In this document: positions 10,081 through 49,657 of the stretch, in pieces
Layout of the letters: each line of letters opens with the position of its first letter
Position numbering within the stretch: position 1 is the first letter of the stretch
NCBI GenBank assembly: GCA_002179805.1
Contig: NAVB01000318.1
Location: 26,203-90,202 of the forward strand
DNA from: Acanthamoeba lenticulata
Lineage: Eukaryota; Discosea; Longamoebia; Acanthamoebidae
DNA: 64,000 nt
Reading direction: 5' to 3'
Notes under the pieces: generated by a model
What the model saw: the letters and a program-made list of their open reading frames with translations, nothing else
Database searches by the model: none
Told to the model about the DNA's origin: nothing
Position numbers and translations under genes: made by a program

Positions 10081-10368
10081 ATGCCAGGCTTTATATGAAA
10101 AAGACTACAGGCCGCACTGTGCCGGAGCCACGGGCGACACCTTCCCCTACACGACCAGCGGCATCCAAGGCCTGGCCGACTACGGCGCGGCGGTGGCGGA
10201 ACCACTTCCAGGCCAACGTGTCGAGGATCGACGACGACATCGCCCAACAACAGATCATGCTCCCCTCACGTCTGTGCGCTGCTACTGCTTGTCTACCAAA
10301 AAGAAAGAGTGTGATTTCCAAATAAGGTTTTCATTATTGAGACTATACAAGAAGAGATGAGGAGGTGG

Positions 10369-12644: not shown

Positions 12645-15600
12645 TTACTCAGAGAAGGCGTCGGGGCCCATGTAGCCGACGTTGGTGGTCGGATGGACGA
12701 CCGAGTGGAACGGGTTGGACTGGACGGCCACCTGGACGGGCACCTCGGAGAGCTCCACGTCCTCTTCGCCTGGGATCACACGCCGCTGCTTGAACCGCAT
12801 GAGCGCTGCACCGGCGCCCGCGCAGCACGCGGCGGCCACCGCCGCAACGGCCGCGGCGCCCACGGTGCCGCCCACTACAGCGCCGACGATCGTGGCCACG
12901 TCGTCGCCGCCCGTGTTGGGATTCTCGATGGCGATCGAGCAGTTGGAGCCCGTCCAGCCAGACTCGCACACGCACTGGCCGTCCACGCACTGACCGTGGA
13001 GAGAGCAGAACTCGCGGCAGAACTGGTACTCGGTCTCGTTATTCATGTTGCCGCTCACCTCGCAGTACTCGAGCCACGCCTGGCCGTCGAGGATGGCCAC
13101 CTCGCTCTGGCCGTTGGTCACGTTGTAGTCCTGCATGCACGCCTCGTACCAGAACGTCGGCGGCAGGTAAGACTGGCTGCACTTGCTGATCGTGTTCGGG
13201 TCGAGCGTCGTGATCGTGCACTGGTCGGAGCCGCCGCCGGAGGAGCCGCCGCCGCCGGGCGAGCCGCCGGGCGTGACGCCGCCGGTCGAGGGCGGGATCA
13301 CATGGCAGCCGCAGCCGCAGTGACACGACGAGTCGACGTTCCAGCACTGGCTGTAGGCGTCGCCCGTGAGCCCCGAGGTTGGGTTGGCGAGCGTGAGGCC
13401 GTTGGGGCACTGGAGGCCGAAGCCCGGTGCCGTGGGCCCGTTGGAGCCGCACATGCCCTCGAGCGCGTCGTAGTAGCTGCCCGGCGTGCCGACGGTGAGC
13501 GACAGCCAGCGGAGGCTGGTTGACACGAGCAGCGAGACCTTTACCCGCAGGCCGCTCGACAGCGTCATTTGCACGGTCCGCGAGCCGCCGGTCACGCGCA
13601 CGCCCGAGGGTGAGGTGAAGTTGAGCACCGAGCCGTTGACCAGCGGGAGGGCCTGGCCGTTGAGGGTGACGGTGATGGTCTGGAGGGTGTCGAGGAACAC
13701 GAGGAAGGTCTCGTTCGCCTCCGGCAGCTGCATGCCCACTGCCGCGAGGCACGACGCGTTCGGGAAGCACTCGGCGAACCGGCCTTGCACGATCACGTTT
13801 TCCACCGTCGACGTAATCGCACGCTTGCTGCTGTTGGTCGCAAGGGCTGCGGCTCCGGCCTTGGTGCGCGTGATGACGTAGTCGCCCGGCTGGTGGAAGC
13901 TGAACGACGACTTTTGCTCAAAGGCCACCACGTGCGGGTCGCCAAAGATCTGGCAGAAGGTGTTCTCCGGCAGGCTGCAGTCGTATCCGTGCCACGACGC
14001 ATCGCACACGCACTGGCCGTCGGATCCGCACACGCCGTGGCCGGAGCACTCGTTGGGGCACACGGTACTCACGTCGCACGCACGCCCGCTCCAGCCGCTC
14101 TCGCACACGCACACGCCGTCGCTGCCGCACGCGCCGTTGCCGCTGCAGTCCGTGCATTGGTCGCCGCTTGGCTGCGAGCAGGCCGAGCCCGTGAAGCCCA
14201 GGCCGCACACGCAGGAGCCGCTTGTCGTGCACACGCCGTTGGCCGAGCAGCCGCCCGCGCAGGTCGGCGGCGCGATGGAGCAGTCCGCGCCCGAGTAGCC
14301 GCCCGCGCACGCGCACACGCCGGTAGCGTTGTCGCACGTGCCGTGGCCCGAGCACGCGTTCGGGCACCGCTGTACGGGCTGCGCGCAGTCGAGGCCGGTG
14401 AAGCCCGCCGCACATTGGCAGCGCGCGGTGCCGTCGCCGGAGCTGGTCACGCAGGAGCCGCGCAGCGAGCACAGCGAGGGGCAGGCCGGGCCCGACGAGC
14501 TCCAGCGGATGGAGGTCGACGTGGTGTTGTCGAGGGTCTCGAACGAGCCCTGGAAGCTGCCGTAGCCCACGCCGGCGTAGGCGCCCGACGAGCCGCCGGC
14601 CATGGTGATGACCGTGTAGAGGAGCGTGCTGTTGGCTAGCGGCGTGTAGCCGTTGACGAGCACCACGTCGAGCCAGCCGCCCTTGGTCACGCTGCCCGAG
14701 CACGAGATGACGTTGTAGTCCACCACGGGCACACCGCCGCCGATCTCGAAGCGCAAGACGCCGGTGGCCTCCTGGTACAGGTTACCGTCGATGGCCAGCT
14801 TGCCGCCGCTGGCGCCGCTGGGCAGGATGGAGCCCCCGTTGACGATGCTGCCCACGACGACGCCCGAACCGGAGATGGTCGCGCCCGGCCCGTTGGCGAT
14901 GGGCACGTAGGTCACCACGTTGCCGCCGTTGAGGTGCAGCCCGGCGCCGCTCTGCTGCTGACAGCCCTGCTGGAGCGCGAGGCTGCCCCGGTCGAGCTGG
15001 ATGAGACCGCCGACGACGTTGACGACTTGGGACTCGATCGACACGCTGCCGCTCACCGTCTGCACGATGCGGCCGCCGTTGGTGACGGGCGACTTTGCCG
15101 GCGAGCCCTTGCAGCCGCACGCAATGGCCTGCGCTGCCTGCGAGATGGTCCACAGGCCCGTGGCGGCGTTGGTGATCGTGGCGTTGGACTGGAGCTCGAT
15201 CTTGCCGCCGGTCCAGTCGAGCTCGCCCAGGTTGAGCAGGTGGGCGCACGTGAGCACCAGGTCGCTGCTGATGGTGGCGTGCGCGTTGAGCGCGATGATG
15301 AACAAGGCGTCGCAACCGTCGAGCGTCGCTGAGCCGTTGACCGTCAGGGAGCCGTTGTAGGTGACCTGGCCGCTGCCGCCCGAGACCACGGTCGAGCCGC
15401 CGCCGATGACGACGCTGCCGGGGAGGGTCACGTTGTGGCCCGTGGTGTTGAGACACCCGCCGCCGAGCTCCACCACAGCGCCAAAGGTGATGGGCGACGC
15501 GCTGGCGGTGAACTGGACGCACGCGCCCGTCTGCACGATGGTCGTGTTGACGTTCCACGAGCCCGACACGACGCAGGTCGATCCGTTGTTGATTGTGGTG

Positions 15601-24600: not shown

Positions 24601-27600
24601 TAGAAATTGACCGTCACGTAGAGGTCGCGGTCGCCCGTGAGCGTGCCGGACACAAAGTACAAGACGTAGATGTTGTTGCTGCTCGATCCCACGGTGAACA
24701 CGCCACCGTTGATCCGGATGGTGATGATGACCGTCACCGACCCGTCCATGAGCCATACCGACCCGCCCACGTTGACAACGATCTCGTTGATCTGATAGCC
24801 TGCTGAGCCAGAGGTCGTTGGCGTAGAGCCAAAGGTGACTTGCGTGTTGACAATGAGGACCGTGGAGCCAATGAGCTGCGCCGGGTCGACAAAGTTGATG
24901 ACGCCGCTGTCGCATACGACCTGGCCGCCGGCGGAGAAGTTGAACGTCGCGCCGATGGTGGCCGACCCGTTGGCGAAGCGCACGAGGCCGGAGCCCGTGA
25001 ACACGACGGTGGCCGAGAACGAGTAGAAGGCGTCGATGAAGTGGACCGCCGTGCCCGAAGAGACGACAAAGCCGCCCGTCATGGTGCCCGAACCGTGGAG
25101 GATGATCACGCCCAGGTTGATGATCACCTGTCCGCCGTCGTTGTTGAACACGGGCCAGATGTGGAGGTCGCCTGGCGTGTTCTTGATCAGCGTGCCCGAG
25201 CAGCCCACGGTGCCACCGCCGGTGCCGGTGGTGAAGGCGTAGGACGAGGAGCCGCTGATGACGAGCTGGCCGCCGACGCCGATGGTGAAGGTGCCGCCGT
25301 TGGACAGCTGGATGTTGCCGGCCTGCCAGTCGACGTTGCCGTACATGAAGACAACGCGAACGTCGATGAACTTGGTCGAGGAGCCGGAAATGACGACCGG
25401 GCCCTGGAAGACGGTGCGGCCAAAGTCGGCAAAGATCGTGTTGGTCCACACGACGGTGCCGAAGACCGTGATCTGGCCGAGGCCGCTGACGGTGCCGCCG
25501 CTGAAGGTGGCGCCGCCCTGCACCACGACGGAGCCCTCGTTCACCGCGAAAGTGCCGCCGAGGATGCTGATGGACACGTTGATCCTGAGGGAGCCGTAGA
25601 TCAGGACCGAGCCGCCGTACTGTGTGACCACATCCAGATTGTAGGAGCCCGAGGCAAAGTTGACCACGCCTGCCGTGAGGTTGAGGATGGAGACCGACAC
25701 GCCGTTGCTGAAGGAGACCGAGCCGCCGTTGTTGATGAAACCCGCGGTGCCCTGGTAGGAGCCGCGGAAGTCGATTGTGCCGCCCTGGTTGACATAGGCG
25801 CCCGAGCCGGAGAGGACGGCCGACGGGTCGATGTAATAGCTGCCCTCAGTGAACTGGAAGCCGGACGACGGCCCCGTGATGATCGTGCCGCCGATCGTTC
25901 CGCCGCCGTGCAGGTAGGTGATACCGTTGCTGGCGTCGAAGACGCCCTGGTTGTAGAGGTAGACGTACACGTTGAGGGTGATGTTGGTCTGCCCGGGCAG
26001 GCCGACGTTCACGCCGCCCTGCACGATGAACAACGAATTGGCGCCGGTGCCGTAGATGTTGGCCACCGGCTGGGCGACGACGAAGGAGCCGCCGTAGCCG
26101 ACCGTGAACGTGCCGCCCGCATCCAAGTGCAGGTCGCCGCCGGTCCACACGGCGTTGCCGCCCGCGGCGATGACGATGTCCGAACCGTTGAGGGTCTTGG
26201 ATGCGTTGCCAGCGAGGTTGAGCTGTCCGCCAACGGTGAGTGTGATGCCCGAGATGACGCCGCCGGTCCAGGTCGTGTTGCTCGTGAATGTCGTGGTCAG
26301 GTTGCCGCCGCCCTGAAGGCTGCCGCTCTCGAGGTGCAGCCGGCCAGCGATCAGCAGTTCGCCGTCGACAATGAGCGTGCCACCCCGCAGCCAGAGGTCG
26401 CCCTAGAGTGGATGATCCGACTGTTAAAATCGTACAGTGGAAGTAAGCAGAGAAGGGAGAGTGACGAGGAGACGTACGTCAACGAGGACGCTGCCCTTGA
26501 TCCAGAGGAGACCGCTGCGCAGGTCAACGTTGGCCAGGTGGTACTGGAAGTAGGTCAAGGGCTGTGTGACGACCACTTGGGCGCCGTCGATCACGATCGG
26601 CGTCGAGGCCAGGACCACCTCGGCAGGCGGGACCACCTCGATCGTGCCGGCGTTGAAGACGACGGAACCATTGGCGGTCATCGAGACCGACGCGCCGAAC
26701 TGTGCCGTCAGGCCAGCGAAGGTGACGTTGCCCTTGCCCTTTAGCATGGTGCCGACACCCATCGTGTAGGTGCCGCTAGTGAAGCGCAGGTTGCCCTCGG
26801 TGGCGAACATGCCATTGCTGGTGCCGCCGCCGCCGTTCACGTCGAGCACCGCGCCGGCGGTCACGTTGACGGAGCCGCCCTTGTTGTTGAGACTCGTGCC
26901 GGCTTGGATGGACGTCGAGCCCGACGCGCCGTCGCAGGCGGAGAGGGCCCGGCCAACGTCGATCGAGTCCTCGAAGTTGTAGTAGGCCATGAGCCCGTTG
27001 GTGGGGCCCAGTGCCGAGGGGTCGGCCAGGCTCGCCACCTCGGTCGGCGTGAGTGCGCGGGCGAAGAGGCGGACCTCGTCGACGGAGCCGTTCAGGCAGG
27101 CCTCGTTACGGGTCACCGAGCAGCCGAGGCGCAGGGGCGCGCCAGCAACCAGCAACCTCGAGCCAACAGGCCAGGTGGACTTGCTCCGGACAGTGCCGTT
27201 GACGTAGAGCGCGCTCAGGCCGGCGTTGCCGTCAAAAGCCATGGCGTAGTGCGTCCATTGATCCATCGCGCCGGGGCTGAGGACCGTCAGGCACGGGCCG
27301 GTGGTGTAGCTGGTGCATTGGCCGGTGCCGGCGTAGAACCCGAGCGAGGACTGGTTGACCAGGCGTACTTCAAAGGCCGCGCTGAGGCCCGCGCCCAGGC
27401 CGACTATCTGCGCGCCACTGGGCGAGTTGCCGGCCACGTTGGCCCAGAAGGACAGCGTCATCGCCTGGCTCAAGCCGTTGTAGTTGACGTAGCCGTCGGC
27501 ATTGACCGCAGAACCCGAGTTGCCACCGTTGACGGCGAGCGCTTTACCCTTGACGCCCGCAGGCGTGGTAGTGGCCGAGCCGAGGACTGAGCCGGAGAAG

Positions 27601-33600: not shown

Positions 33601-36600
33601 GAAGCGCACGCCATCGTCACGAAGCCCTGAGGCGCGTTGGTAAACGACGCGCCGTAGGTGAACGTCAACACACCGCCGGAGTAGACGGTCTGGCCCTGGT
33701 TGACGATGCTCGTCGCCGAAAGGGTCTTGGTTGCCGAGCCGGCAAGCTGCAGGACCGCACTCGAGTTGATGGTCAAGACGCCCGATCCCGAGACGCTGCC
33801 GCCAGTGCTGTGGTGTCGTGTAAAACGACGCGTCAGGCAAAGGACATCCCATAGGACTATTCCTAGACAACAGCCGAGGTTGAGGTGGAACGTACAAGCG
33901 GTAGAGGCTGCTGACAGTGATGGCTTCGCGGAGCCCAAGCACGCCGTCGGACTGGGTCACGTTGGTGAGGGTGAGGATTTGGTCCTGCAGGTCAACTACG
34001 CCGCCGGTGATGTTGAGCGGAGGCAAGGTGACGAGGTCGGCGGGCACGGTCGACAGAACCAGCTGGCCAGAGGCAACCAGGATGGTACGCGAGCCCAGCG
34101 AGACGGCTTCGGTCGTCGCCAGCTCCAGAGACCCGCCGGTGACCTGCACGCGGCAGTCCGAGCAGTTGAACGAGCCCGCAACCGTCACGTCGGCCGAGCC
34201 CGAGACCAGCAGGGCCGCATCCAGGCCGAGCCGCAGGGCCGAGCCGCTGGTGAAGGAATGCTGGCCGGCCGAGATTTGGAGCTGAGTGGCGCCCTGGGCC
34301 GCGGCCAGCGACGAGTTGGCAGAGTGGAAGCTGTTTGGGCCGGCAAGCGTGAGCAGGCCGTTGGTGAAAAGGATCGACCCGCGGTTGTCCACGCTGCAGG
34401 ACAGCGTCGTCGAGGTGTTGCCGCTCTTGAGGATGGTGCCCGTGTTGATCAAACGGCAGCCAGGTGAGCCGCTTGTCAGCAGGTTTGCGGGCGAGGCCGT
34501 CTGGGCTGAGATGTCCAAGACGGCCGAGTTGTTGAGCAGAGCGCCGTTGGACGCCGTCACAGAGCCGGCGAGCCACTGGACGCCACCCGCTGTGGCAAGA
34601 GTCGAGGCTTGCAGAACCTTGGCGGCGCTGGTGTCGATCGTGAGAGGTCCGTTGACCTGCACGTTGACTGAGGAGATCGTGCCGCCGTTCCACGCGAGCG
34701 CGTTCTTGACCGTGAGAGTCGGTGAGCTGATCAGGCTCAGTCCAGCAGCGATCTGCCCGGACGCGTCCAGGCGGAGGGTTGCGAGCGTGAGCGGCACGTT
34801 GAGCGTCAGCACGCCGCCGGTGACCGTCATGGTCTGGTTCAGGTCCGCGATCGCCGGGGCGGCCAGCGTCAGGTTGCCTCCGCTCACGGTGGCCGACGAG
34901 ACGTTCCAGGCCGTGGTGCTGGTAGAGTTGACCACCAGCACGCCGCTGGTCACGTTCAGCGAGCCGCTCGAGTGCACCGAGGCCGAGCCCAAGACGGTGA
35001 AGGTGTTGTTGCTGACCGCAAGCGTGGCGTCCTTGCCCACAAACAGGTTCGTGTTTGTGATGCCGCCACCGCTCAACGTGAGACCGCCGCTTGCAACGTT
35101 GATGGCAGCCGAGCAGGAGATCGGCCAGCCCAATACCACAGAGCCGGCGGCCGAGCTGGTGACCGGGCCCAGCAGGTTGAGCTGTGGCGCGGCAGCCGAA
35201 CCGACGACAAGCGCGCCCGCAGTGGACTGGATGCTCATGGCGCCAGCGCTGTTCCACGTCGCGCCGGACGAACCGGTCAAGGAGCCGTTGCTCCACACCG
35301 TGGCCAGCGTGTTGAGCGTGCGCGTGGTGAGGCCGACGTTTCCGCTAAGGTTGAGCGTGCCGTTGACGGTGGTGGCACCCACGCCAGCGTGGCTGCCGCC
35401 GGACCAGTTAAAGATGGCGTTGACCTGCACGCTACCGCTTCCCTGGATCGCTCCTCCGGCCTGGCCATTGCATGCGGCGGTCAGCCGTGTGAAACTCGCG
35501 TCTATGTGAGGAAGCAGACAAGAAACAAGCATACCTGGGTGATGTTGGTGGCCACAAGCGAGATCCGCCGGGTGGGGAGCACCAGGGTGCCGCGGGCGAG
35601 GCTGAGCGAGCCGAGCGTCACCGACGCCTTGAGCGTGATCGTCGCGGTCGTGTCGACCACCGCGGTATCAGTGGTGCGAGGTACGAATCCCTTGTCCCAG
35701 CAAGCCAATGTGTGCCTAAAAAACCGAACAAGTCCAGCATCAGCGGCCGGTGAGGATTAAGGGAGGAGCCTCACGAGGCAAAGCATAACATACCAGTCCG
35801 AGTTGGCGCTGCAAATCCAGGACACCGTGGAGGGCCCAAGGGTGGCGGTCGACACGCAGCTCGACCCATAGTAGGGCGCATTGCAGACGCAGGACCCATT
35901 GACGCACGTGCCCAAGCCCGAACACTTGGATGGGCAGGCGTCGGCGCACGCGGAGCCCATGTAGTTGCCGACCGTGCAGGTGCAGTTGGAGCCGGAGCAT
36001 GTGCCGCGGCCGTTGCAGTTGTACGGGCACAAGTAGGCCGAGACGACAAACTGGGTGGTGTTGTAGGTGGGCCACGTCGAGAGGGCGGTGCCCGGCACGA
36101 CGCTGGCCACCGTGCGGAAGTCCTCCGAGTAGCTGGCGTAGTTGATCAACCCGAGCGAGTTGCCCGCCACGGGGCGGAAGTCGCTGGTGTACTGCAGGTC
36201 GAGCGCGCCGTCAAGCGTAGCGGTGGAGCCCACGAGGATCCGCGCAAAGTGGACATCAGGCACCAAGCCGCCGAGGACCAGGCTCACGCGCGCAGAGGGA
36301 CCCATAGTAAAGGCGCCGACCTTGGTGGTCGAGGTGACATTCCAGGTGGCGCCCAAGAGGTTCAGCGAGCCCGCGATGTAGCCCGCGGCGACGTTGCCGG
36401 GTGCGACGCGGTTGCCATTGATGCTGAACTTGCCGCCGGTGATCGTGTGGGTCTGGTCCGAGCCCGTGAGGGTCAGCACGCCGGCGTGCGCCTGCGTCAG
36501 GTTGCCGCCGGTTTGGGTGAGCGCGCCCTGCAGCCACCAGTAACCGCGGTGGGCGTCGAAGGCGCCGCCAGGGTTGAGGTTGACGTCCCAGTCGATGTAG

Positions 36601-39600
36601 CTCGTGCGGTAGGTGCTGTACTTGCCCAGCTTGCCAAACACGATGAGCTTGGGCCGGCCGGAGCTGGGGGCGAGCATGCGGTAGTAGTCGTAGCAATTGT
36701 GGCACAGGTTGTAATAACACGAGTCGCACGGGGTCGTGTAGAAGGCGTAGATGTCGAACGTGCCGGTGGAGCCCACCACCACCTGCGCACCGTCGTAGCC
36801 GTACAGGTTGCCCCGGGACCAGCGCGTGTAGCCGACGAGCTGCAGGACGCTGATGTAGATGTACCGGTTGACCGCCGTGTCGAGCTGAAGCGTCGAGACG
36901 GTCCAGTTGCCCGTGCCCCGCACAACGGAAGTGCTCGCCCAGTTGGCGACGGTGGTGAGGAGGACGCCGTTGACTTCGAGCGTGCGCGAGTCGTACATGT
37001 ATCCGCTCATGGTGATGCTCGGCGTTGAGGCATCGTAGGTGTCGATGCGCAGGAGGCCGCTGCTGAGCGACACCGAGGGCGCGCGGAAGGACGACGTGCC
37101 CACCATGAAGAGCGCCGATCCGCCCGTGAGCATCAACCGCACGGCGTAGCTGCCATAGACCGCGAACACCGCGTCCGGCAGGACGTAGACGGCGCCGGAT
37201 CCGCTCATGCTCGAGCCTGCGGGCATCGTGCTGCTCGCCACCGTGAATTGGAGCGTTGAGCTGACGATGGTGACACCGTCAAAGGTCGAGGTCGAGTTGA
37301 TCGAAACGACGCCTGTGTTGATCTGCAGGCGGTTGCGCGTGACCAGCGGGAGCACCCACGTGACCGGATCGTTGGTGACGTTGACGGTGAGGGTGCCCAA
37401 GTTGACAAAGGCGCCGCTCGACGAGCTGCTGTAGGGATAGACGGCGCAGCCCGCGGCCAGCACAGCAAAGTTCTGCTGGTTGACCAAAGAGTTTGCGTCC
37501 TTGATACGGATGTCGCCCGCGGTCCACGTCAGGTTGCCGTTGTTGACGATCATGCGGTCGACGACCATGGAGCCAGCGGTCCAAGCCGACGTCCCGGCCA
37601 GGATGGTCGTTCCCGTGCCGGACTGCCATCCGCCGCCCCACTGGTACTGCAAGATGGTGAGGTTGCCCGAGCCGGTCAGCGTACCTCCGGCGTGGCTCAG
37701 GCTGGGAAGGGTCAAGCTCAGGGCCGTGAAGTCCAGTGTGGCCCAGGTCAAGGTGATGGGCGGGAAGGGCGTCGGCGGGACGGTCTCGAATACGGCGGTT
37801 CCGCGTCCGACGTTCAGATCCGAGGCCAAGCTGATAAACGTCATCTCGCGCCGGAAGGTGACCAAGCCGTAATACACGATGGCCGGGCCGGTCATGGCGT
37901 AGGTGCCACGCAAGTCCACAGTAGCGCCTGATTCAAGCTCCGGAGTCAGTTCAGGTATTGCAACAACGACGACCACGATGACGACGCCGACGCTAGCGTC
38001 TGGCTTGCCAGAGGCCACGTACCCGAGTAAGCGACCGTGCCGGCGCCCTGGAAGACGCTTCCCACTTCGTGCGCAAAGTAGCCGTCGTCAAAGGCCACTC
38101 CGCAGCCCGCCGAGACGTTGAAGACTGCAAAGTTGGCGCTCGGGCGAGCACCGGTGCTGAAGACGAGCGAGCCGGCCGCGCAGGCAACTGACGCGTAATT
38201 CTCAAATGTCGTGCTGTGGTGAAAGAAGAAGAAGAAGAGTAGAAATCAGCAAAACGACGGTTCCATCGTCACCAAGGTCGAGGACTGACACGCACCTGAT
38301 CGTTGACGTTTGGCTGGACTTGAGGATCGTGCCGCGGTTGATGAGCGAGGCGAGACTGCCAGAAGAAGACCAGCTGCCCGCGGCGTTGAGGAGCAGCGTG
38401 CCGTTGGGCGTGTTCTCCACGACGTCGGACAGCGTGACGGAGCCGTCGGTCCAGGCCAGCGTGCCCAGGTTGCGCAGCGGCCGAAGCAGGTACTTGGTGG
38501 CGGTCGACGACAGCGTGAGGGTGGTGCCCAGCACAAGGACGGTGCCCGTGCCGGTCATGGACCCCGCGCTCCAGGTGCTCGGCTGCGTGATCGACAAAAG
38601 GCCGGAGCCGGTGATCTCGCCGCCGCTGAGGGTCAGCGGGGGCAGGTACGTGTTCCACGACGTCAAGTCGAGGACGCCGTCAGAGACCACGAGCGTCGCG
38701 GCCAGCGTCGACGGCTGGAGAGCCGCCATGGGCGCAAGGGACATGTTGTCCACGATTTGGCGGGACGACGGCGGGAACTCTGTCGTTCCGCCTGAGATGA
38801 GCAGGCGGCCCGTGTTGTTAAACGAGCAATAGACGCTGTTTTGGCCGTCGGTGAACTCGACCGTCGAGGCAGCGTCGGCGATGACGCTCGCGTTGACGTC
38901 CAGGACCGCCGATATGAACGTGGTCGTGCTGCCCAGGAGCGTGCTGTAGACGCCGGTCCCCGCGTAGCTGCCGCCCGAGAAGAAGAGCCGGCCCTGCGTG
39001 TTGACCGTCTTTCCAGAATTCTCGTAGTCGACACTGATGACCACCGTGCCCGTCGTGCCGTGGTTGGTCACCAGGCCCTGGTTGATGAAGCGGCCCTGCT
39101 TGGTCCCGGAGGGGCTGAACGAGTAGCCGGCGGCGAGGTTGATGTCAAAGGTGCCCACGTTGGTGAAGGTGGCCTGGTCGGCACCGACGATGTTGCCGCC
39201 GGTCCACTGGGTCAGGTTACGGTTGACCAGAGCCCTGCTGAACAGGCACGCGCCTGGCGCAGTGACCTGCAGCGTGCCCGTCACCACGGTCGTGCCCAAG
39301 CCGACCATCGAGCCGCCGCTCCCTAATAAGACGAGCAAAGCGTCCGATTGTAATGAGGCCTCATGAGCCATGATGGACTGGACTGGAGGAAGAACGTAAC
39401 GTACAGGCGTAGCTCCCAGGAAGAGTGATCGTGCCGGAGCCCTGGAGAACACCGTTGGTCTGCGTGCCCGAGGGCAAGGTCACGTTCCAGGCCAACAAGT
39501 CCAGCGTGCCGCCAGAGAGCGCAACGACGGGGAACGACGCGGGGATGGCCTCAAAGGTGGCTGAGCCGGCTGAGACGCGGAGCGTCGGGCCGAACGAAGT

Positions 39601-42600
39601 GTAGCGTACGCCCGCGCGGAAGAAGACCGCGCCTCCGTCCACGATCGGGTCAGCAGTCGACTGGTAGTCGGCGTAGACCTCGCTCACGCCGCCCGAGAAG
39701 CGGAAGTTGCCCACGCCGGCAAGGCGGCAGGTCGTGGCCAGCGTGTGGCGGTCCGTGGTGACGGACCCGTCGAAGGCGATCTGCCCGCCGGTTTCGGCGC
39801 TGTAGAGCGAGTCGTTGCAGCTGCTGCGCCCGGCCAGCGCCAACACGCCGGCAGAGGACCGGAAGGCAGCGCTGGAGCCCAGGTGCTCAAAGGTGAGGTC
39901 GATGTAGGTCCGGTAGGCGCTGTAGACCGACTTGGTAATGAGACCCCGATTGCGGAAGACGGCCGGGAAGGTACTCGAGGCCGAGCAGAAGCAGTTGTTC
40001 TGCCCTGCAGGGTCGGCAAAGAGGGTGGCGTTGTCCCAGTTGGTGAAGGTGGACCCGCTCGTGCCGTAGACGTTGCCCGACTTCCACTGGGTGATGTTGT
40101 AGTTGACAATGTCGCGCGAGAATGTCATGGAGCCTCCGCTGACCACCAGCTGGCCCTGGATGATCGTCGTGCCGACACCGCTCATCACACCACCTGAGAA
40201 TGAGAGACGTAACGGCCATTAGATTGGATTACTAAAGCTGTCAAGGGCAAGAGGTGTGGCTACGAACCGCTCCAGGCGTAGCGGCCGACGATCGTGGCGT
40301 TGCGCGGGCCAGTGAGCGTGCCGCCAGAGTGAACGACGTCGATGATACGGTGTTCCGCATCGCCCAAGTCGAGCACGCCAGAGGACAAGGTGAGGGCGGG
40401 ATGATCCTGCTGGATGGCGTAGTGGAAGACCAGCGTGCCGCCGTCCACGGCCATACTCTGCGCGGTGATGTTGGAGAAGACGACGCCCGGGAGCAAGTGG
40501 GCAATGCCGCCAGAAACCACCAGTCGCGCGCCATTGGTGAACGTGCTCCGGATATTGTGCTCGCCGTCGATCACCTGCACCAGGCCAGCCACACGCGAGA
40601 GCCGGTCGAGCGTCGAAGAGCCGCCGTTGAAGACGATGTTGTGGGTGTTCTCCGCAGGGATCAGGCCCGAGCTCGAGCCGCCGCCAGCAACGTAGAAGAT
40701 CTGGCCCACGGTGCGCAGCGTGCCGTTGTTGTTGAGGGGCACGGAGATGGTGGGCGCGTAGCCACCCGACGTGGTCAGCAGGCCAAAGTTATCGAAGGCG
40801 GCCGAGCCGCCCGTCGGATACATGGAGCGGCTATCGTAGGGAAGGCTGACGGTGAACGTAGCGCCGGGCTGATTCACGAACCTGCCGTTGTTGACTTGCA
40901 CGTAGCCTCCGGTCCAACTGGTCTGGTTGTTGTTGATCAGCTGACAGCGGAGCACCTTGGTGTAGGAGCCGTCGTTGGTCGCCGGACTGCGCAAGGAGGC
41001 GCTTCCGTTGTTGATGAGCTGTCCGCCGGCCAGAGGGCAGGTGAGGATACCGCGGTTCCAAGTGAAGTCGCGCGTCACGGTGACCGAGCCCTCGATGTTG
41101 AACACCGACATGTCGGTTGCGGTGTCGCCCGCGCCGAGCGTGAGCTGGCTGAAAACGTGGGCGAACTGGCCAAAGTTGACGGTGCTGCCCCAATACGTGC
41201 CTGTTGCCAACGTGCGCCCTGTCAGTCAGCAGCACATGCGCGTATGTGGATCCTCCAAACGGTTGGTGGTAGGTGGCCTGCACGTACTGATGGGCGGAAT
41301 GTTGTTCCGGGCGGCGTCGGCAAAGGTGAGCAAGCCCGCGGCGAGGGTAGCGCCCACCTGCAGCAGACCCGACTCGGTGAAGAGCGCTGTTGACGCGATG
41401 GTGGTGGCACTCTCGACCACGATCGTTCCCGTCATCTGGACGCGGCAGGCCTAGAAAGAGCAATGTGCTGACGTCAGCTTTCACTCGGCCGAAAACAGAA
41501 CGTTTTTAGGTCATGTGTGTGTGTGTGTGTTCATTACCAGGTGCACAACGCTGCTGAGCCGAATAAGGCCCGTGCCGGTGAGCGTCGTCGACGGGCCCAG
41601 GTAGACCGCCGCCCCGATGAACTGCAGCTCCCCGCCAACAGAGCTCGAGAAGGTGCCGTTGACCTGCTCGCCAACGGCGTTGATCGCGAGGACGCCGCCG
41701 GAGGCCGTGACTGACGACGTGCCCAATGGCGGGTTAGCGCTGCGTTATGGTCATGACTCTGGCCAGAGCCTGAGGCGCAAAACGTACCGGTGCCATAGTT
41801 CACGAAGCTTGGCTGGATGGCGCAGTAGCGCGCATTGACCTGCTGGATAATGCCGTTGTTGATCACCTGACTCGTAGCAGTCGAGCCCGAGAGCGTGTAG
41901 GCCGAGCCGGAGAACGCAATGGAAAACGTGGCGTTCGAGTCTACAAGCAGGAGGGCACCGCCGCTGAGGGCCACGTCGCCCGCGCTCCACGTCGACAGCG
42001 ATCCAGCCGCGAAGCGCAGCGTGTGCGCGTCCACGGCCTTGGAGCCGACAGTAGCGAACAGAGCGCTGCCCTGAATCACCGTCGTTCCGCGTCCTGTGTG
42101 CGAAGCGCAAACACGTCAAGCGCAAATCACACAGTCCGTACGTAAAGGATATTGGTACATACCTTGCAAGACGCCCGTGTTGAAGGTCAGCGTCTGGAGA
42201 ATGGTCACCTGGCCGTCGGCGACGACCGATCCGGCATTGCTGGTGTCGCCGATCTGCAGAGACGACAGGACGACCGTGCGGCAGTTGAAGTTGGCCGTGC
42301 CGCCCTGGGCCACGAAGGGCGCACCGAGGTCGACGACCGTAGCCTCACCGCGGAGGTCGAACGTGCCCGCCGCCGAGACCACAGTGCGTCCGCCGGTGGC
42401 GTCGTAGGTGCCGAGCAGGATGAGGTTGCCGCCGGCGACGTTCAGGCTTCCGCGAACGGTCACCGCCGAGGTCGGGTCGAGCGTGTAGGCGTGTGCGGCG
42501 TCGTACTTGATCACCTGGAGCGTGGCTCCAGCCAGGACGCTGATGTTGGCCTGGTTCACGCCTCGGGAGATGGCCAACACGCCCTGCGCCACCTGCACGA

Positions 42601-45600
42601 GGCCCTCGTTCTCAAGTTCACACAGCAGCGTCGTGGATCCGCCCTGGTTGACCAGCGTGCCGCGGTTGAGGGCCTGCGTGCCCTCGACGCCTGCCATGGT
42701 GCTCGAGTTGGTCGACAACACAAAGGTGCTGCAGAGGAAGAATAAGGTGAGAATCCTGTTCCAGGTAAGGATTTAACGCAAGAGAGGAGAGCGAATGCGA
42801 GCCCACGCGCACCCATTCACGTCGTTGATGAAGGAAGCCGAGTTGATGAGCGAGATATCACCGGCAGACCAGACGCCGCTCATTTCCTGCGAAAGAAAGC
42901 CAGCGTATGTGAGAACGTCGCGTTGAGAGACGAAAACTACCAAGGCCCAAAGGGCAGCAACGGTACGTTGTAGAGCCTGATCATGTCAAGCGTCTTGGTT
43001 GCGCTTCCGCTGATGGTGGTCGTGTTGGTCACAACCAGCGAGCCCGAGCCCTGCAGCGCGCCTCCGGTCTGCAGCACACATACAAGTCAATAAAGGGTGC
43101 CGTTGAGCTTCGCGCATGCAGAGTTCAACGAGACGACGGACCCATTGGAACTTGGTCGCCGGGATGTCGACGTTGGTCGAGAAGGCGCCTCCGGAGACGC
43201 TGAGGGACGGAATGGTGAAGAAGAGGCAGTGGATGCGCATGAGTCCGGCCGTCACAATGAACTGCGAAGGGATCAGCGAGGGCTCCACGTAGAGATCGGC
43301 GATGCCGCCACTCACTGCGAGCACATCAGTGTACGGTCAGTATTTTCAACATCCATGTCGCGTGCAAGAGAGAGAGAGAGTGTGTGAATACCGGTGAGCG
43401 GGTTGCCAAAGTTGTGGAGCACGGCGCCCAGGTTAAACTTGGTCTGGCCGGCGTTGATCTCAGTCGAGCCAGAGACGTCAAACACGCAGTCGACAGAGAT
43501 CTGACCGGAGAGCAGGGCCTTGCCCGAACCGGCAAAGAGCGAGCCGTTGGTCAGCGCGAACGTGCCGCCAAGCTGGAGCGTCGCGTTGGCCGTCATCCCG
43601 AACGTGCCGTTGTTGTAACCGCCACCTAATTGGCCGCGAACGTGAGCCAATCACCGCCAAGTACAACCAACCAGGCGTGTGAAACTCAACGCACCAGAGA
43701 GGAAGAGCCAGCCCGAGCCGACCTGGAGTGCGGCGCTGCGCTCATTGTGGAAGTTGAGCTGCAGCTCACCCTTGGCCGAACCGGAGTACTGGACCGAGGC
43801 GTTGTTGACGAACACGGGCTGCTGGCCACCGCCGTTGACAAAGGCCGTCGGCGCGCCAAAGGCCATCGTAAAGACAGCAGAACTCTTGGGCGAATTGACG
43901 ATGGTGGCGCCGCTAGAGCCCGCGACGTTGCCGGCCAGCCACAGAGCGTCCTGCACACACACGGGAACACAATGGCTCATGATGAGCCACTTCTCGACGC
44001 TGGAGGGTGGGGCATATGCCGGGGTATGCAAACGTGCCTGGTAGTTGTACAGGGTCGTGAGCGCGAGGTACTTGACCGCCGTGGAGTCGATGTTGAGGCC
44101 GCCCGCGCAGTGCACGCCCGAGACCAGGTTGTACAGCTGGCCGCCGAGCCAGGCAAAGCGAGCGTAGAACCACAGTGGAGCCGTGCCTGTGAGCGTGCCG
44201 CCGGACATGGTGAAGTTGCTGTGGGCCTCCAGCCGACCGCTGATGGTGTGCGTTCCGCCGTAGACGAATCCAGGCGTGGTGAGATTGACCAGGCCGCCGA
44301 TGGTGATGCCGCCCGCGCGCAGGTAGAAGCCGGTGTCCGCGGTCAGGTTCTGGGTCGTCACCAGCGTGCCTGAGATGTCGAGCACGGTAGCCACGACGTT
44401 GGCCTGTTCGCGCAACCCGCAAGCGGCGTTGAGTTTCTGAACACACATGCGTGAGGCAGGAATGACGTACGTCATGGAAGTCAGCCTTGCCCGAGGTAGT
44501 CGTGATGATAAAGGTCTGGCCGATGTTGGTCAACACGGAGCCCGTGAGCAAGTCGAGCAAGCCGGAGACGATGCTCGTCGTGCCCCTGACGTTCAGCACA
44601 GCACCATCTTGGACCGTCACCGTGGCGTTGCTCTGCAGCTGGAGCGTTCCGTCCACCGCGGCCGTGCTGCCGGCCAGGAAGTTGTGCGTGGCTCCAGTGC
44701 CGGAGAAGATCAACTTGGCGCCCGAGGCCACGTCGAACCGGCCTGCATTCTTGGTGCCAAAGTCGGCGATCTGGACTGCGCCGGAGCTGATCGAGAAGTT
44801 GCCCGACTGGTCGAAGAGCGCGTTGATAACGTTCGTGTTGTTACTGAAACGAAGCGCGATCAGTACCGGACAGGTGCCCAACAAACACGAAAACACGAAA
44901 ACGATTCAACAGCGTACCCGTTCTTCTGCATCGTGCCCGAGTTCGCGAGATAGAGGGCGGCGCCACCGCTCCAGAGCAACGAGCCGCCGGGCGTAAAGTC
45001 CCACCGGCCGCTGTTGACGATCGCACCACCGTTGGAGCCCAACACATTACCCTGCACACACCGCATGTGAGGTCTCAGCCTCTTGTTGCCTCTTGTTTGG
45101 GTAATCAGGCCGGGCACTTACCGCGATCCAGGCGCTGTTGCTCGCGCAGTTGATGCGGCGCGAGTCAAGCGTCTTGTCCGCGGGACCGTCGATGAGCAGT
45201 CCGCCCGAGCACACCAGCGGGTTGGGTCCACCGCCAATGCGGCCGCCAAGCCAGTGGGTAAGCTGGGACACGCGGATCTGGGCCGAGCCGCCCAACTGTC
45301 CCTGCTCCTGGAGCCAGAGCGAGCCTTGGATGTTAGTGATGGCGTTGAACAGGACCGACCCGGTCGTGACGATGAAGAGGTCGCTGGAGAAGACGATGTT
45401 CTGGTAGGTGACGAGGCTGCCGCCAGAGACCGTGGTCTTGGGCAGGGTCACGCCCAGGCTGCTGATGCTCAGCAGGCCGGAGCTGATCGTCACGTTGGCG
45501 CCGAGGCGCTGGATCGTGGAGGCCGAGGCCAGGTAGACCTGCCCACCGGCTACGGAAGTCGTGCCGGTGACGCTGACCCGCGACGAGACGGTCGTCGAGC

Positions 45601-48600
45601 CGCCCGTGAACAACAGCGCACCAGGGCCCTGCACGACGCTGCCCTGCTCGAGCGAAGTGGTCCCGGCCGCAAAGACCAGCGACGACTGCACGTTGAAGAG
45701 ACCCGTCGATGAGCCGCCGCCGGAGAGCGATAGGACACCGGTGACCACGTCGAGGGTCTGCGAGTTGCTGAGCGAGGCCGCGATGGTCGAGGTGTCGGTG
45801 CTGTTGACCTTGGTGAGGAGGCCAGCGTTGACCACGGTCCAGGCCGATCCGAGCAGATTGCCATTCGCGACGAGCGAGATAGTGCCGTTGTTGGAATTGC
45901 GCAGCTGAGCGCTGCCCGAGCCGGTCAGCTGTCCGGCCACCACGAAAGTGCCGTAGTTGTTGAACTGGTGGCCGGCGTTGATGGCGGTCGTGCCCGTGAT
46001 GGTCGTGTCGTACGCCACCAGCGTGCCGCCGCCCAGCGTACCGCCTGATCAAAGCAAACAAACACACCATGGTTGGCCGTTGTTGGGAGGAGGCAAGGAG
46101 GAGGACCGGTCAACGTACCTTGCCACTTGAACGCGCCTGTGACGGTCGTAAGACCCGCACCGGAGAGCATGCCGTTGGTCACCATGGTGAAGCCGGCCTC
46201 TAGGTTGAGGCGGATGCCATACTTGACGACAAGCCCGGCCTGCATGTAGAGGTCACCCGGGATGGTGACATCGGCGTTGAAGTAGTGTGTGCCGCCGGTG
46301 ACGTTCAGCGCGCTGTGCCACACACACACACACGTGGGAGTCAGCCCAAACTTCAGACATCCACCACAAAGCGAAGCTATGGGACGTGCCTAGGGAAGCG
46401 CATGGCGGTGTTGAGAACAAGGCTACCGCCGAGGAGTGCCGTTCTGGGGAGTTGAACGGAAAGCGCGTTGATCGTGAGCGTACCGCCCTGCACGACCAGC
46501 TGCGAGCCGAGAGACGCGACCGAGGCCGACGGGGCGAGCGTGTGGCTTCCGCCTTGAATGGTGGTTACACCGAGCACATTGTAGCCCGCACTGACGGTGG
46601 AGATGCCGCCGGAGAAGTTCACCTGACCGGCGCCGGCGATGGTCGAGCCGGCGTTGAACTGCGACGTCCCACCATAGAGGACCAACGTGGCCGAGTCGGC
46701 GACGTTGACGGGCCCGGTGAACACACCACCACCCTGAAGGCTCAACACACCGCGCGTGACGTTCACAGAGCCCGTGCTGGACAGGGCCGACGCGAATGGG
46801 ACCGTGATCGGGTCCGGCAGGACCAGCGCGCCGGCGTTCTCCACCGTCCAGGGAGAGCCCAGCAGCTGCGTGCCGGTGGCCAGCACCATGACGCCAGCGT
46901 TCTTGAGCGTGGCCGAGCCGCCGCCCGTGAGCGAGCCGCTGACAGTGCAGTTGCCATTACTGGTGAGCTTTCCGCCGCCAAGATAGGCAGAGCCGGTGAT
47001 GGAGAGGCTGCCCTGCACATCGACTCGGGCGAGCGAGACCGAGCCGCCGCGCAGGGTGAGGTCATTGGTGATAAGCGCGTAGCCGGAGCCGGTGAAGCTG
47101 CCGCCGCTGATGACATTGCCCGTGCCAGAAAGCTGCAGCAGGTTGCCAACGATCAGCGTGCCGCCGCTCTGCGTAAACGCGTTGAGCACTTGAACGGTGC
47201 CCTTGAGCGTAGCGGAGCCTCCGTCCACCAGCAGCTGACCCATCGAGAGCGAGTCCGCACTGCCCGGCTGGCTGAGCAGCGCGCCGGTGGAGATGCGGAC
47301 CACCGAGCCGAGATTGCCGATCGACGTGCCCGCCGCGAAGGTCAGCGTGGCTGCGATGACCGTCGTGCCGGTGTTGCTCATCTGCGCGTTCTGGTAGGTG
47401 ACGCTGCCGCCGCTGTAGGTGATCGTGCCGCTGCTCGTCACCGAGGCGCCCACGGTGAACGTGGTGCTGCCACCCGTGAACTGAAGGTTTCCCAGCGCCG
47501 AGACCACGACGCTGGCACCGGTGTTGAACTGCGCGCTGCCGGAAAGGCGCAGTGTCGCCGAGTCGGCCACGTTGATCGCGCCGGTGAAGGCAGCATTCTG
47601 TAACACGAGCGTGCCAGCCGTCACGTTCACGAGGCCGGCGCTGTTGAGGTAGGTAGCGATCGAGATCGACAGCGCCGAATCGCGCAGCGCGATTGTGCCC
47701 GGGTTGTTGAGGGTCCAGGCCGTGCCCAGCAGTTGTGCGCCGGACTGAAACAGCATCGTGCCCACATTCTTGAGCGTAGCTGAGCCGCTGCCGCTTACCG
47801 AGCCCGACACGAAGCAGTTGCCGTTGCTGTTGAGGTTGCCCGCGCTGAGCGTCACCGAGCGCGTGAGGAACAGGTTGCCCTGAACGTCCACTCGAGCTCC
47901 CGACACGGTGCCGCCGCTGAGGACCAGGTCGCCGGAGAAGGTGGTGACGCCCGTGCCTGTGAGCGCGCCGCCGCTGATCGAATTGTTCGTGGCAAGAAGC
48001 TGCAGTGCGCCGTTGACCGTCACCGTTCCGCCGGTTTGATTGAGAGGCTGTGTGATCCGCGTGGTGCCCTTCAACGTGAGTCCGCCGGCGGAGATGGCCA
48101 GTTTGTCGGTGGTGAAAGTGTCCACCACCAGCGCGCCGCCGGAGATGGTGGCGATGTCGCTGACGCGGTAGCTGCCTTGCAGTGTGGCCGACCCGCCGGT
48201 GACGGTGAGCGAGCTGAAGACTTGCACGTCGCCCGTGTCCGGCATGGTCAGCGAAGCGCCGCTGTTTAGGGTCAGGCTCGAAGCCAGACTGAAGATTGTA
48301 GTGCCTGCGCCAATGTTGACGGTTGTGGACACAACCGCCGCGCCTGTGTGGTCCAACTGCGACGATTGGTAGTTGATGGTGCCACCAGTATAATACATTG
48401 TGCCGCTACTCGCCAGCGTGGTGCCGATGTTGATGTTGTGAGAGCCCCCCGCGAAGTTGATCGGGGCCTGTGACGCGATGGAAACCGGCGCCCAGACCTC
48501 GCTGCCGCCCTGCAGCACCAAGCCGCCCCGCTGGAGCGCGAGCGAGGTGCCGCGGTGGCTCAGCCATACGGAGATGCGAGCCGTATCGTTGAGCCCAGTG

Positions 48601-49657
48601 AGCGACACGGTGAGCGAGCCGTTGTTGGCAAACAACGCCGAGGAGGCACCGGCCGTCATGATCAAGTCGCTTCCGCCGGCAAGCACAAACTCACTGCCCG
48701 GGCTGTTGATGAGCAGGGAGCTAGCAGCCAGGGTGAGCGAGCCTTTGGTCCACACCGCGCCCCTGTTCCGTGCGCCAAACAGTGGGACATGTGTGAGAAG
48801 AAAAAAAAAAAAAAAATGAGAAGTGGTAGAGGTCAGGGACGTCAGGGACGAACGCATTGACGTTGAGCCTGGTAGAGGTGCTCAAGGTACGGCCCGGGCA
48901 TACGGTGCAGTCTAATTTGAGCGGTCCATTGACGTCGATAGCTGTGTTCGTGATGCCGAGCGAGCCGCCGCTCCATACGAATGGGCCGTTGACCTGCCAA
49001 ATCACAACCAATTCGCCATGCATGAGCACACACGAAGCGACTAGCGCTCAGAGAGAGTAGGCAACGCACGGCAAAGACGCCGGTGCCGGTGATGGTCGTG
49101 GAGGCCGAGCCGTTGAAGTTGAAGGAGGACACAGTGAGCGAGGTAGGGCTGGTGTCAAGCAGCACGGTCAGGCCTGATACCAGAAGAAGAATGCACGGGG
49201 TCGCGGCAAAAAACGACATTTTTACCTGAGGATACGGAGTGAGCCGCCGAGAAGGGTGAGGCTTTGCACAACCACATTGGCATTGACGTCAACCAGGCCA
49301 GCTGCGTTGATAAGCACATCGTCGGTGGTTGTGGGCGCGACACCGCCAAGCCAGTTGCTGTTGGCCGTCCAAACGCCGCCAGCTGGGCCGACCCACTGCA
49401 CGGTCGCCGTTTCCGCTGCTGGCACGAGAGATCCAAGTGCAGCAAAGAGAACGACCAGAAAAGCCACAATAAGACCTGCAAGATCGATCGATGTTCAAGA
49501 ACATTGGAAGATTAGCCAAGTGGCAAGAAAATTAATACGCGAAAAAGTTTCAAAACATTTCAAAAATTGCAATTTCCGATACGGAATTGAGGTAAGCACA
49601 ACAGGGCCCCAAGCGACGGGAAGGGATATACAACGTACGTTCGTTGTCGAAACGCAT
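12645..49657 (-). CDS. Giant modular cell-surface protein (beta-strand repeats, EGF, LamG, VWD, TM)
   Basis: One gene of about 37 kb. The first coding exon (49639-49657; alternative ATG at 49672) joins exon 49236-49475 to give MRFDNERLIVAFLVVLFAAL..., a clear signal peptide with likely cleavage after LVPAA. About thirty exons follow. Approximate coding blocks: 49072-49175, 48.86-49.0, 46.39-48.77, 46.12-46.32, 45.12-46.05, 44.9-45.06, 44.48-44.85, 44.04-44.44, 43.69-43.95, 43.39-43.63, 43.15-43.32, 42.17-42.73, 41.53-42.1, 41.23-41.44, 40.26-41.2, 39.41-40.2, 38.3-39.33, 38.02-38.21, 35.79-38.0, 35.53-35.71, 33.9-35.5, 32.17-33.8, 30.56-32.09, 29.05-30.48, 28.89-28.97, 28692-28837 and 26478-28604. 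The last exon is 12645-26402. Estimated product is 11,000-12,000 residues, rich in G, T, S, V and N-glycosylation sequons. The repeats resemble right-handed beta-helix exoproteins. Role inferred: adhesion or matrix recognition at the plasma membrane. The single-gene model rests on intron phase across 35.7 kb and the absence of internal poly(A) signals or start regions. Confidence 0.75.
12648..12905 (-). other. Transmembrane helix and cytoplasmic tail of the giant protein
   Basis: The hydrophobic stretch IVGAVVGGTVGAAAVAAVAA (about 12,840-12,897) contains a GxxxGxxxG glycine zipper. It is followed by two Cys that could be palmitoylated and by basic residues MRFKQRR, which fit a stop-transfer signal with the tail inside. 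The tail has about 45 residues, an acidic stretch (PGEEDVELSE), an NPF tripeptide (SNPFHSVV) and an NVGY sequence near the C-terminus that is NxxY-like but lacks the Pro of NPxY. Confidence 0.8.
12938..13018 (-). other. Membrane-proximal EGF-like module
   Basis: The segment CSLHGQCVDGQCVCESGWTG ends in NCS and has EGF spacing. It lies directly outside the transmembrane helix, after a Cys-containing linker (YCEVSGNMNNETEYQFC). Confidence 0.85.
13310..13965 (-). other. von Willebrand factor type D-like domain
   Basis: The region starts FCQIFGDPHVVAFEQKSSFS, the hallmark GDPH motif of VWD domains. It continues through beta-rich segments to CGSNGP and a Cys-rich end (SSCHCGCGCH). VWD domains are found in mucins, zonadhesin and other adhesive secreted or surface proteins, often with multimer-forming disulfides. 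Here it lies between the five-module EGF block and the last EGF module. Confidence 0.8.
13972..14487 (-). other. Block of five EGF-like modules
   Basis: The modules begin CPSLCSLRGSC, CPNACSGHGTC, CAGGCSANGVC, CTDCSGNGACG and CPNECSGHGVC. Each ends with a CxCxxGWxGxxC-type motif (for example CVCESGWSGRAC). The block connects the beta-repeat ectodomain to the VWD-like domain. Confidence 0.9.
16250..19300 (-). repeat. About 275-residue tandem repeats with a CGCG motif
   Basis: Four units are marked by a GG-x-VCGCGS motif at about 16,625, 17,460, 18,290 and 19,130. The two central copies are nearly identical over long stretches: the block with ATCAGCTGCGTGACTGTGAG starts at 16,876 and again at 17,701, a period of 825 nt, exactly 275 codons. 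Conserved protein blocks include INGTVSLTVTQLINYGT, WSSGTVVVAQLELHGTT and LVVRSCAEVVINVRI. The outer copies are more diverged. The period keeps the frame, so copy number can change without frameshift. Confidence 0.9.
20400..23050 (-). repeat. About 850-nt diverged repeat units
   Basis: Units are anchored by TLSQRTLVNVG (about 22,865), TLTGRTIINN (about 22,015) and TLSQRALTIAGG (about 21,150). Each is followed by WSxGxIxCSxGA, then a Cys within SLNN/NVLS/SLVS sequence, then VTIxxxVxIGG and a GTVxF strand. The spacing is about 850 nt, but identity is much lower than in the 16-19 kb block, so these are older duplications. The pattern of short Gly-terminated strands is what a solenoid beta-helix would show. 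Confidence 0.7.
26930..27625 (-). other. LamG/concanavalin-like jelly-roll domain
   Basis: The stretch has the order typical of LamG-like domains: GKALAVNGG, YVNYNGLSQAMTLSFWANV, WTHYAMAFDG, LYVNGTVRSKS, PLRLGCS and SVDEVRLFARALTPTEV, then a repeat-like AYYNFEDS segment. These domains bind glycans or matrix proteins. It is inserted between beta-strand repeats within the exon 26478-28604. Confidence 0.8.
35520..35825 (-). other. Second copy of the N-terminal cap module
   Basis: After the internal EGF pair the protein reads VSWICSANSDW, then across a phase-2 intron (donor GTATGTT at about 35,790; acceptor TTTTTTAG at about 35,714) ACWDKGFVPRTTDTAVV and a run of short strands. The pattern W...W...P.T.D.vvi...v.v..sv.l.sL.l..G.L matches the start of the mature protein at 49.24-49.4 kb. 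The spliced frame is open, so the gene continues through it. Confidence 0.7.
35858..36030 (-). other. Internal pair of EGF-like modules
   Basis: Two modules, CPYNCNGRGTCSGSNCTC and CPSKCSGLGTCVNGSCVC, sit in the middle of the giant protein. They fall at the end of the exon that follows a long beta-repeat block, just before the second cap module. Confidence 0.9.
41514..41530. repeat. (TG)n microsatellite in a giant-gene intron
   Basis: Eight to nine TG units lie in the intron between the blocks at 41.23-41.44 and 41.53 kb. Confidence 0.9.
43366..43386. repeat. (AG)n/(TG)n microsatellite in a giant-gene intron
   Basis: AG units followed by TGTGTG lie close to the donor at about 43,390. They are pyrimidine-rich on the gene's strand. 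Confidence 0.85.
48799..48816. repeat. Poly(A) tract in a giant-gene intron
   Basis: A run of about 17 A (T on the gene's strand) lies shortly upstream of the acceptor for the exon beginning GAVWTKGSL. Confidence 0.9.
49236..49657 (-). other. Signal peptide and first cap module of the giant protein
   Basis: Exon 49639-49657 ends MRFDNE plus one base. Intron 49476-49638 runs from GTACGTT to CTTGCAG, and the next exon adds RLIVAFLVVLFAALGSLVPA. The mature start then reads VQWVGPAGGVWTANSNWLGG followed by VAPTTTDDVLI, a pattern common at the start of bacterial beta-helix passenger proteins and similar to G8-like domains. The exon ends at GTATCC (49235), which preserves phase into LTVLLDTSPTSLTV. 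Confidence 0.75.

Follow-up and report, generated by a model that had tools for sequence, protein, structure and literature searches.

A predicted giant membrane-anchored rod protein of Acanthamoeba, present in three gene copies, with a repeat of probable bacterial ancestry

Acanthamoeba hunts bacteria and can infect people, and its mannose-binding protein is a transmembrane surface receptor for adhesion. The protein analysed here would likewise be a transmembrane adhesion receptor, a likeness of description; its bulk resembles the bacterial beta-strand-repeat giants, in which a tandem module such as the one found here is bounded by an N-cap and a C-cap that are mostly terminal. The 192-residue consensus core of the amoeba module is 44-51% identical to seven homologous modules, and the modules are spaced by about 285 residues in the amoeba versus 218 in the listed homologues (median of 398 spacings). 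Unlike these giants, the amoeba protein combines two capped blocks with a eukaryotic signal peptide, introns, an EGF/VWD stem and a membrane helix; given its 32 introns and eukaryotic neighbours, we place it outside the bacterial set, as a eukaryotic homologue. Its modelled helix is also similar to the autotransporter and two-partner-secretion (TPS) adhesins antigen 43, EtpA, FHA secretion domain and pertactin, at 9-15% identity and with an rmsd of 10 Å or more in some of the structural alignments. Pfam matches at E<=0.01 on the last exon comprise four families, all EGF, with no outer-membrane barrel of the autotransporter type Va among them, and the N-terminal piece, at 86 residues short for judging a TPS domain, matched no Pfam family. 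The EGF modules find their best match in teneurin/tenascin-type EGF clusters, and the Pfam listing holds teneurin EGF families only, with nothing of the teneurin core beyond EGF.

The 2013 A. castellanii genome paper proposed that bacterial-like hemagglutinin-domain adhesion proteins aid attachment to bacteria or biofilms (PMC4053784), which is the same idea of Acanthamoeba taking over bacterial adhesins; the giant rod gene would be of the same sort as those adhesins but far larger. The available passages of that paper mention the mannose-binding protein and name no giant or beta-helix protein, its supplementary tables may hold the same gene, and its main text as available contains 'EGF' zero times, although it does speak of epidermal growth factor domains in SUEL lectins. 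A study of huge proteins (PMC11573180) describes Planctomycetota as rich in them and, in the passages available, leaves Acanthamoeba unnamed. The available passages of PMC11377244 and PMC9045148 contain no description of this protein, and no title among those listed from the open-licence PMC literature concerns it. The initial annotation of this DNA knew of no characterised protein with such a module order; within these searches this holds for the order as a whole, which recurs in two more genes of the same genome (C468 and C46), but the bulk of the protein is a bacterial-type capped beta-helix. Module and fold are already known in bacteria, and it is the intron-bearing, membrane-anchored eukaryotic assembly in three copies that was not met in these searches.

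The window is a stretch of 64,000 nucleotides from Acanthamoeba lenticulata. The gene occupies positions 49657-12645 of its minus strand, and the model comprises 33 exons and 32 introns encoding 11,474 residues, laid out as follows (aa, residue numbers):

12645..49657, minus strand: whole gene, a spliced model with collinear paralogues C468 and C46
12645..26402, minus strand: last exon, 13,758 nt, intron-free, a stop-to-stop frame
49411..49657, minus strand, split by intron I1 (49638-49476): putative signal peptide, aa 1-28, from a hand-picked splice; hydrophobic at aa 3-32, same in the paralogues
49070..49404, minus strand: N-cap 1, aa 31-116, from an HMM of the three paralogues
36471..48993, minus strand: beta-helix block 1, aa 117-3765, 14 superrepeats of about 285 aa, from the repeat HMM
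36030..36470, minus strand: C-cap 1, aa 3766-3912, from the cap HMM
35841..36029, minus strand: EGF pair linking the blocks, aa 3913-3975, EGF_Teneurin E 1.7e-6
35419..35828, minus strand: N-cap 2, aa 3980-4065, from the cap HMM
14940..35418, minus strand: beta-helix block 2, aa 4066-10710, 24 superrepeats, from the repeat HMM and the AlphaFold model of 33806-32163
26952..27629, minus strand: LamG_3 inside one superrepeat, aa 6506-6731 by eye (Pfam match aa 6556-6704), PF13385 E 4.5e-20
14484..14939, minus strand: C-cap 2, aa 10711-10862, from the cap HMM, with beta structure in the second model
13959..14483, minus strand: EGF cluster, aa 10863-11037, EGF_TEN E 3.5e-31
13425..13958, minus strand: VWD with GDPH motif, aa 11038-11215, PF00094 at 23.7 bits on a 251-residue piece, just above the cut-off of 22.9
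12915..13037, minus strand: membrane-proximal EGF, aa 11345-11385, EGF_Teneurin E 1.2e-8
12798..12884, minus strand: predicted membrane helix, aa 11396-11424, hydropathy peak 2.11 at aa 11390-11426, with a counterpart in all three paralogues
12648..12797, minus strand: predicted cytoplasmic tail, aa 11425-11474, with conserved NPF, supported by dN/dS

The initial annotation had drawn a single minus-strand unit at 12645..49657 encoding 11,000-12,000 residues, with a signal peptide at one end and a transmembrane helix plus tail at the other. The gene model agrees in position, size and unity, and hydrophobic segments lie at both ends in all three paralogues. A simple splice-aware gene finder, trained first on the 4,585-residue frame of the last exon, which runs from stop to stop and ends exactly at 12645, extended upstream via short introns and started at the ATG at 49657. 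At intron penalties of -9 and -12 it returned one gene in 50600-11500, and at -6 also one, but with spurious micro-exons at the 5' and 3' ends. A joint run with the paralogues again gave one gene here, yet read beyond the 12645 stop via a weak 248-nt intron; the same overrun occurred in C468, and both models were trimmed at the stop. The 32 introns have a median length of 77 nt, with 30 GT-AG and two GC-AG pairs; the latter, at window positions 46389-46313 and 44037-43951, have the donor GCACGT and were picked by paralogue alignment. Hand corrections guided by the paralogues concerned the I1 acceptor, I2, I5 and I10, four in-frame 'introns' were dropped, and the start of C46 was manually shifted upstream so that the model takes in its signal peptide. 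The automatic model had removed the hydrophobic stretch as part of an intron, so the window gene owes its predicted signal peptide to the hand-picked I1 acceptor. We infer that a single gene encodes the 11,474-residue protein, its exact structure being a prediction. A TATA-like sequence, TATAAAAAG, lies at 50047-50055, about 390 nt upstream of the start.

Searching the genome (48.5 Mb in 1,825 contigs, the window being contig C279) identified the two paralogues, C468 (10,899 residues) and C46 (10,681 residues), both collinear with the window protein from signal peptide to tail. Two profilin loci in this genome have PDB matches to profilins I and II of A. castellanii (1prq/1acf and 1f2k) at E 2.8e-71 and 3e-73, in keeping with Acanthamoeba as the source. 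Identity is 59.9% between window and C468, 54.4% between window and C46, and 64.9% between C468 and C46. The larger length differences correspond to about one module each (324 residues in three pieces, 277 and 286), and the collinearity of the arrays indicates that they predate the split into three genes.

A superrepeat HMM grown from one seed has 287 positions and yielded 130 domain rows over the three proteins. Counting rows that start in the first 25 model positions, out of 45, 43 and 42 rows, gives 38, 36 and 35 modules per protein, with 14 plus 24 in the two arrays of the window protein; the remaining rows supply the rest of an adjacent module or, with a score of 7.1 bits, cover EGF and N-cap 2. 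Array 1 closes in a C-cap that is followed by the EGF pair and then by N-cap 2, which marks each array as a complete unit, and the beta-helix with its caps makes up over 10,000 of the 11,474 residues. Neither Pfam nor NCBIfam gave anything above the curated cut-off for the repeat. The initial annotation had missed that its Gly/Thr/Ser/Val repeats are 38 copies of a module of about 285 residues in two capped blocks. It had also proposed structure prediction of the repeat blocks as a check, and AlphaFold predicted a two-module piece (33806-32163) to be a beta-helix with a pLDDT of 82.7. The prediction, covering two of the 38 modules, is of a right-handed solenoid of short strands whose handedness comes from matched structures; Foldseek alone gave no match to this model at E<=1e-3 (best 1.6e-3). 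A second model has good quality over about residues 1-430, where the helix ends and the C-cap lies, but its EGF part is poor (mean pLDDT 66.5). A beta-helix rises 0.48 nm per coil; at about 20 residues per coil, taken from strand spacing in the model, 38 modules would form a rod about 250 nm long. One gene, hydrophobic end segments and a predicted beta-helix together support the giant rod-like surface protein that had been envisaged.

Among the other domains, the EGF and LamG modules recognized at the outset were recovered, with EGF_Teneurin at E 9.1e-29 on the last exon in Pfam and LamG kept in all three paralogues. The VWD-like module is marginal in the window protein, as its score indicates; the paralogues score 37.4 and 29, a scan of the complete 4,585-residue exon at E<=0.01 did not list VWD, and a VWD profile search of the genome listed C46 and C468 and not the window copy. 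The protein carries 201 N-glycosylation sequons. Hydropathy above 1.6 marks further segments inside the rods (22 in the window protein, 28 in C468 and 8 in C46), so a single membrane pass is an interpretation; we read the internal peaks as beta strands. Val/Ile-rich runs inside modules, for example aa 9703-9731 and 9978-10005, make such transmembrane-like peaks.

A search with the amoeba consensus returned 561 proteins at E<=1e-3 (best 1.7e-148). Organism names accompany eight of the 120 listed proteins, all bacteria (Calditrichia, Thermoflexales, Pirellulales, Verrucomicrobia, Okeania, Gemmataceae, Frigoriglobus and Phycisphaerales), representing Planctomycetota, Verrucomicrobiota, Chloroflexota and other bacteria. 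A scan of bacteria and archaea in a prokaryote-only genome collection found 24 loci, every one of them bacterial, including Verrucomicrobia, Caldilineaceae, Pirellulales, Phycisphaerae, a cyanobacterium, Nitrospira and Proteobacteria. The repeat HMM finds 547 domains in the 120 listed homologues, versus one in reversed and none in locally shuffled sequences. Its presence in 120 of 120 is expected because the proteins were picked by similarity; the controls are the real test, and they rule out an effect of chance or composition. The cap HMMs also match these 120 proteins: N-cap 1 has 54 matches in 52 of them (48 of 54 beginning within the first 100 residues; best E 5e-11), N-cap 2 has 51 in 50 (48 of 51 likewise; best 6e-9), C-cap 1 has 83 in 83 (59 of 83 ending no more than 100 residues from the C-terminus; best 8.4e-16) and C-cap 2 has 69 in 69 (48 of 69 likewise; best 7.3e-15), with no reversed match for any cap. 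That amoeba and homologues share whole units including their ends is the strongest sign of common descent, and the homology of module and caps with bacterial-type beta-strand-repeat proteins is well supported.

Only the consensus found these relatives. A protein search with the real 4,585-residue exon, which considers solely proteins of 0.55 to 1.75 times the query length, gave none at E<=1e-3 among 1,273 scored candidates, and a PDB sequence search of the last exon matched on EGF stretches. The piece from C-cap 2 through EGF and VWD to the tail found 13 proteins, with the best BLAST segments on the EGF part. Tested against the 120 listed homologues, LamG scored below E 1 solely in P0046 (8e-4), and its capture along with the helix is not supported. 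Among viral contigs, one locus from 27 matched stretches encodes the module; this contig of the viral collection, IMGVR_UViG_3300042464_001105, does so at 41% identity.

Contamination with bacterial DNA is ruled out by the introns and by the flanking eukaryotic genes. Ordinary neighbours in the window encode PRPP synthetase (664-1788), ubiquitin hydrolase (8702-9625), class 3 lipase (10343-10975), FMN reductase (53590-54351), aspartyl protease (61068-61706) and a protein kinase (63381-63866). For the history of the module itself we turned to a tree of repeats. A length filter retained 108 amoeba and 494 homologue repeats from a set of 640 repeat domains; the tree used the 37 from the window, leaving out the 71 of C468 and C46, and at most two per homologous protein chosen at random (239 of the 494, from the 120 listed of 561). 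In this unrooted tree, which has no outgroup, 35 of the 37 window modules group in a single clade (support 0.94) that includes none of the 239 homologue modules, with two window repeats falling outside; labels change 3 times, versus 30 or more in 200 shuffles. Such grouping fits one capture followed by amplification. Mean identity among window repeats is 22%, versus 25% to the homologues' repeats, and because the window repeats are less alike mutually than to those of the homologues, long-branch attraction may account for part of the amoeba clade.

The joint reading that we prefer, and consider fairly likely as a whole, is that a capped bacterial-type beta-helix was captured, amplified, set on a stem and triplicated, and that the product is a long-reach adhesin. 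An Acanthamoeba ancestor would have taken the beta-helix from a bacterium, a direction of transfer that we infer from sequence comparison; the captured module would have been amplified in the amoeba, fitted with a eukaryotic stem and signal peptide, and the gene later duplicated to three copies. The outer part of the resulting type I membrane protein would consist of two right-handed beta-helical rods end to end, of 14 and 24 superrepeats and each capped, with an EGF pair joining them and LamG in a loop of the second rod; an EGF-VWD-EGF stem of animal-like modules would connect the rods to the membrane helix and a short conserved tail. The rod would hold the LamG or helix binding surface far from the membrane and stick to bacteria, biofilm or substrate, and it probably serves adhesion or prey capture. 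NPF is an endocytic sorting motif; it is present in the tail of all three paralogues, where it would pass bound cargo to endocytosis. On this reading the protein would be an adhesin or phagocytic receptor, as the initial annotation proposed.

Could the module be an ancient shared or eukaryotic one, with no bacterial capture or with bacteria having taken it from eukaryotes? The lack of an outgroup root, the small number of named organisms among the 120 listed homologues and the limited, length-filtered eukaryotic collections searched would all accommodate such an origin, which we nevertheless find quite improbable: the eight named matches are bacteria from several phyla, the loci in the prokaryote-only collection are bacterial too, and none of the 120 comes from the eukaryote source 'eukprot', though eukprot appears in the stem-piece search. 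The 13 stem matches are EGF only, with repeat or caps in none of them, and one repeat exon searched against its own genome, with 59 of 68 candidates scored, gave 29 matches on seven contigs, each a copy of one of the three genes. A stronger competitor, if still a rather unlikely one, is that each rod goes back to an independent bacterial capture and that the two were fused later. C-cap 1 and C-cap 2 do not match each other (E 1.9 and 6.5), although they match homologues at best 3.9e-10 and 1.9e-14, which suggests either that capture happened twice or that members of the donor family differed in their ends; against separate captures, repeats of both rods are intermixed in the one clade (14 from rod 1, 21 from rod 2), and the N-caps resemble each other (5e-6) to about the same degree as they resemble homologues.

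The same protein might instead play no part as a receptor and form a structural coat, as a glycosylated rod in the cyst wall or in the glycocalyx of the trophozoite. Its great length and repetitiveness, the many sequons, a module number that differs among paralogues and also between a second copy and the window, and a fast-evolving outer part would suit such a coat. We hold this to be unlikely, since dN/dS, 0.53-0.58 overall, is 0.17-0.18 over the last 70 columns of the alignment (tail plus part of the membrane helix, 63-65 codons): a conserved cytoplasmic end with NPF would be superfluous in a wall protein, and the LamG domain has been retained in all three genes. This contrast between a fast-changing outside and a constrained inside, with NPF in all three, leads us to favour a long-reach adhesin with cargo uptake over a mere coat. 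That the model has falsely joined two or more separate genes is very improbable indeed. The introns are predictions and the N-terminal exon is short, with a hand-picked splice; yet gene-finder decoding gives one gene, and window introns are matched in alignment column and phase by 9 of 15 introns in C46 and 4 of 8 in C468 (counts that date from before every hand correction except I1). In C468 one 28,085-nt exon spans everything from about window residue 1,870 onward, and splitting the gene would mean splitting the open frame of 9,364 residues that runs uninterrupted over the equivalent stretch. This single exon and the collinear paralogues form a strong argument for one gene.

If the favoured reading of a captured, amplified and anchored adhesin is true, a very large gene of apparent bacterial ancestry has turned into a eukaryotic surface protein with introns and a conserved tail, and a predator employs the adhesin architecture of its prey. 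It would link the role of the giant beta-strand-repeat proteins of planctomycetes and verrucomicrobia with the molecules that Acanthamoeba uses to hold prey and surfaces. The three copies amount to a natural experiment on binding versus signalling parts, since evolution is rapid in the outer rod and slow in the tail.

A more detailed scenario, which we advance tentatively and rate a little below an even chance, is that one or two complete capped bacterial giants were captured, grown into a rod of 38 modules that spans about a quarter of a micrometre and converted to a transmembrane receptor, of which there are three diverged copies, with module number changing in whole units like a length ruler and the intron-free 3' parts homogenized by recombination with reverse-transcribed message. 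Introns number 32 in the window gene, 15 in C46 and 8 in C468, crowded towards the 5' end and absent towards the 3' end, where exons reach 13.8 kb in the window gene, 17.4 plus 6.9 kb in C46 and 28.1 kb in C468. At residue 7003, the divergence of window and C468 at fourfold sites drops from 0.45 to 0.30, and the last window intron lies at residue 6889. Both the 3' absence of introns and the fall in divergence are expected from recombination with a reverse-transcribed message starting at the 3' end, and introns were possibly lost in this way. GC3 in the window gene is 0.91 in the 3' part versus 0.87, which may explain some of the fall; between C468 and C46 the drop is smaller, from 0.35 to 0.28, and intron gain in the window gene may be an alternative to loss.

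Second copies of parts of the three genes lie on short contigs and are probably alleles, judging from the eight pieces compared. C798 is 96.5-98.5% identical to the window; C1507 is 98.5% identical to it in one piece and 91-94% where module number differs; C567 is 98.9% identical to C468, and C57 97-98% to C46. Changes of whole-module number seem to be ongoing, with assembly error as an alternative. Compared with window positions 14550-19529, C1507 (L006, L044 and L046) has seven near-identical superrepeats rather than six, the extra one being in frame. The second copy of C46 carries one in-frame TGA in C57:3217-4158 (L027), reflecting a broken allele or a sequencing error.
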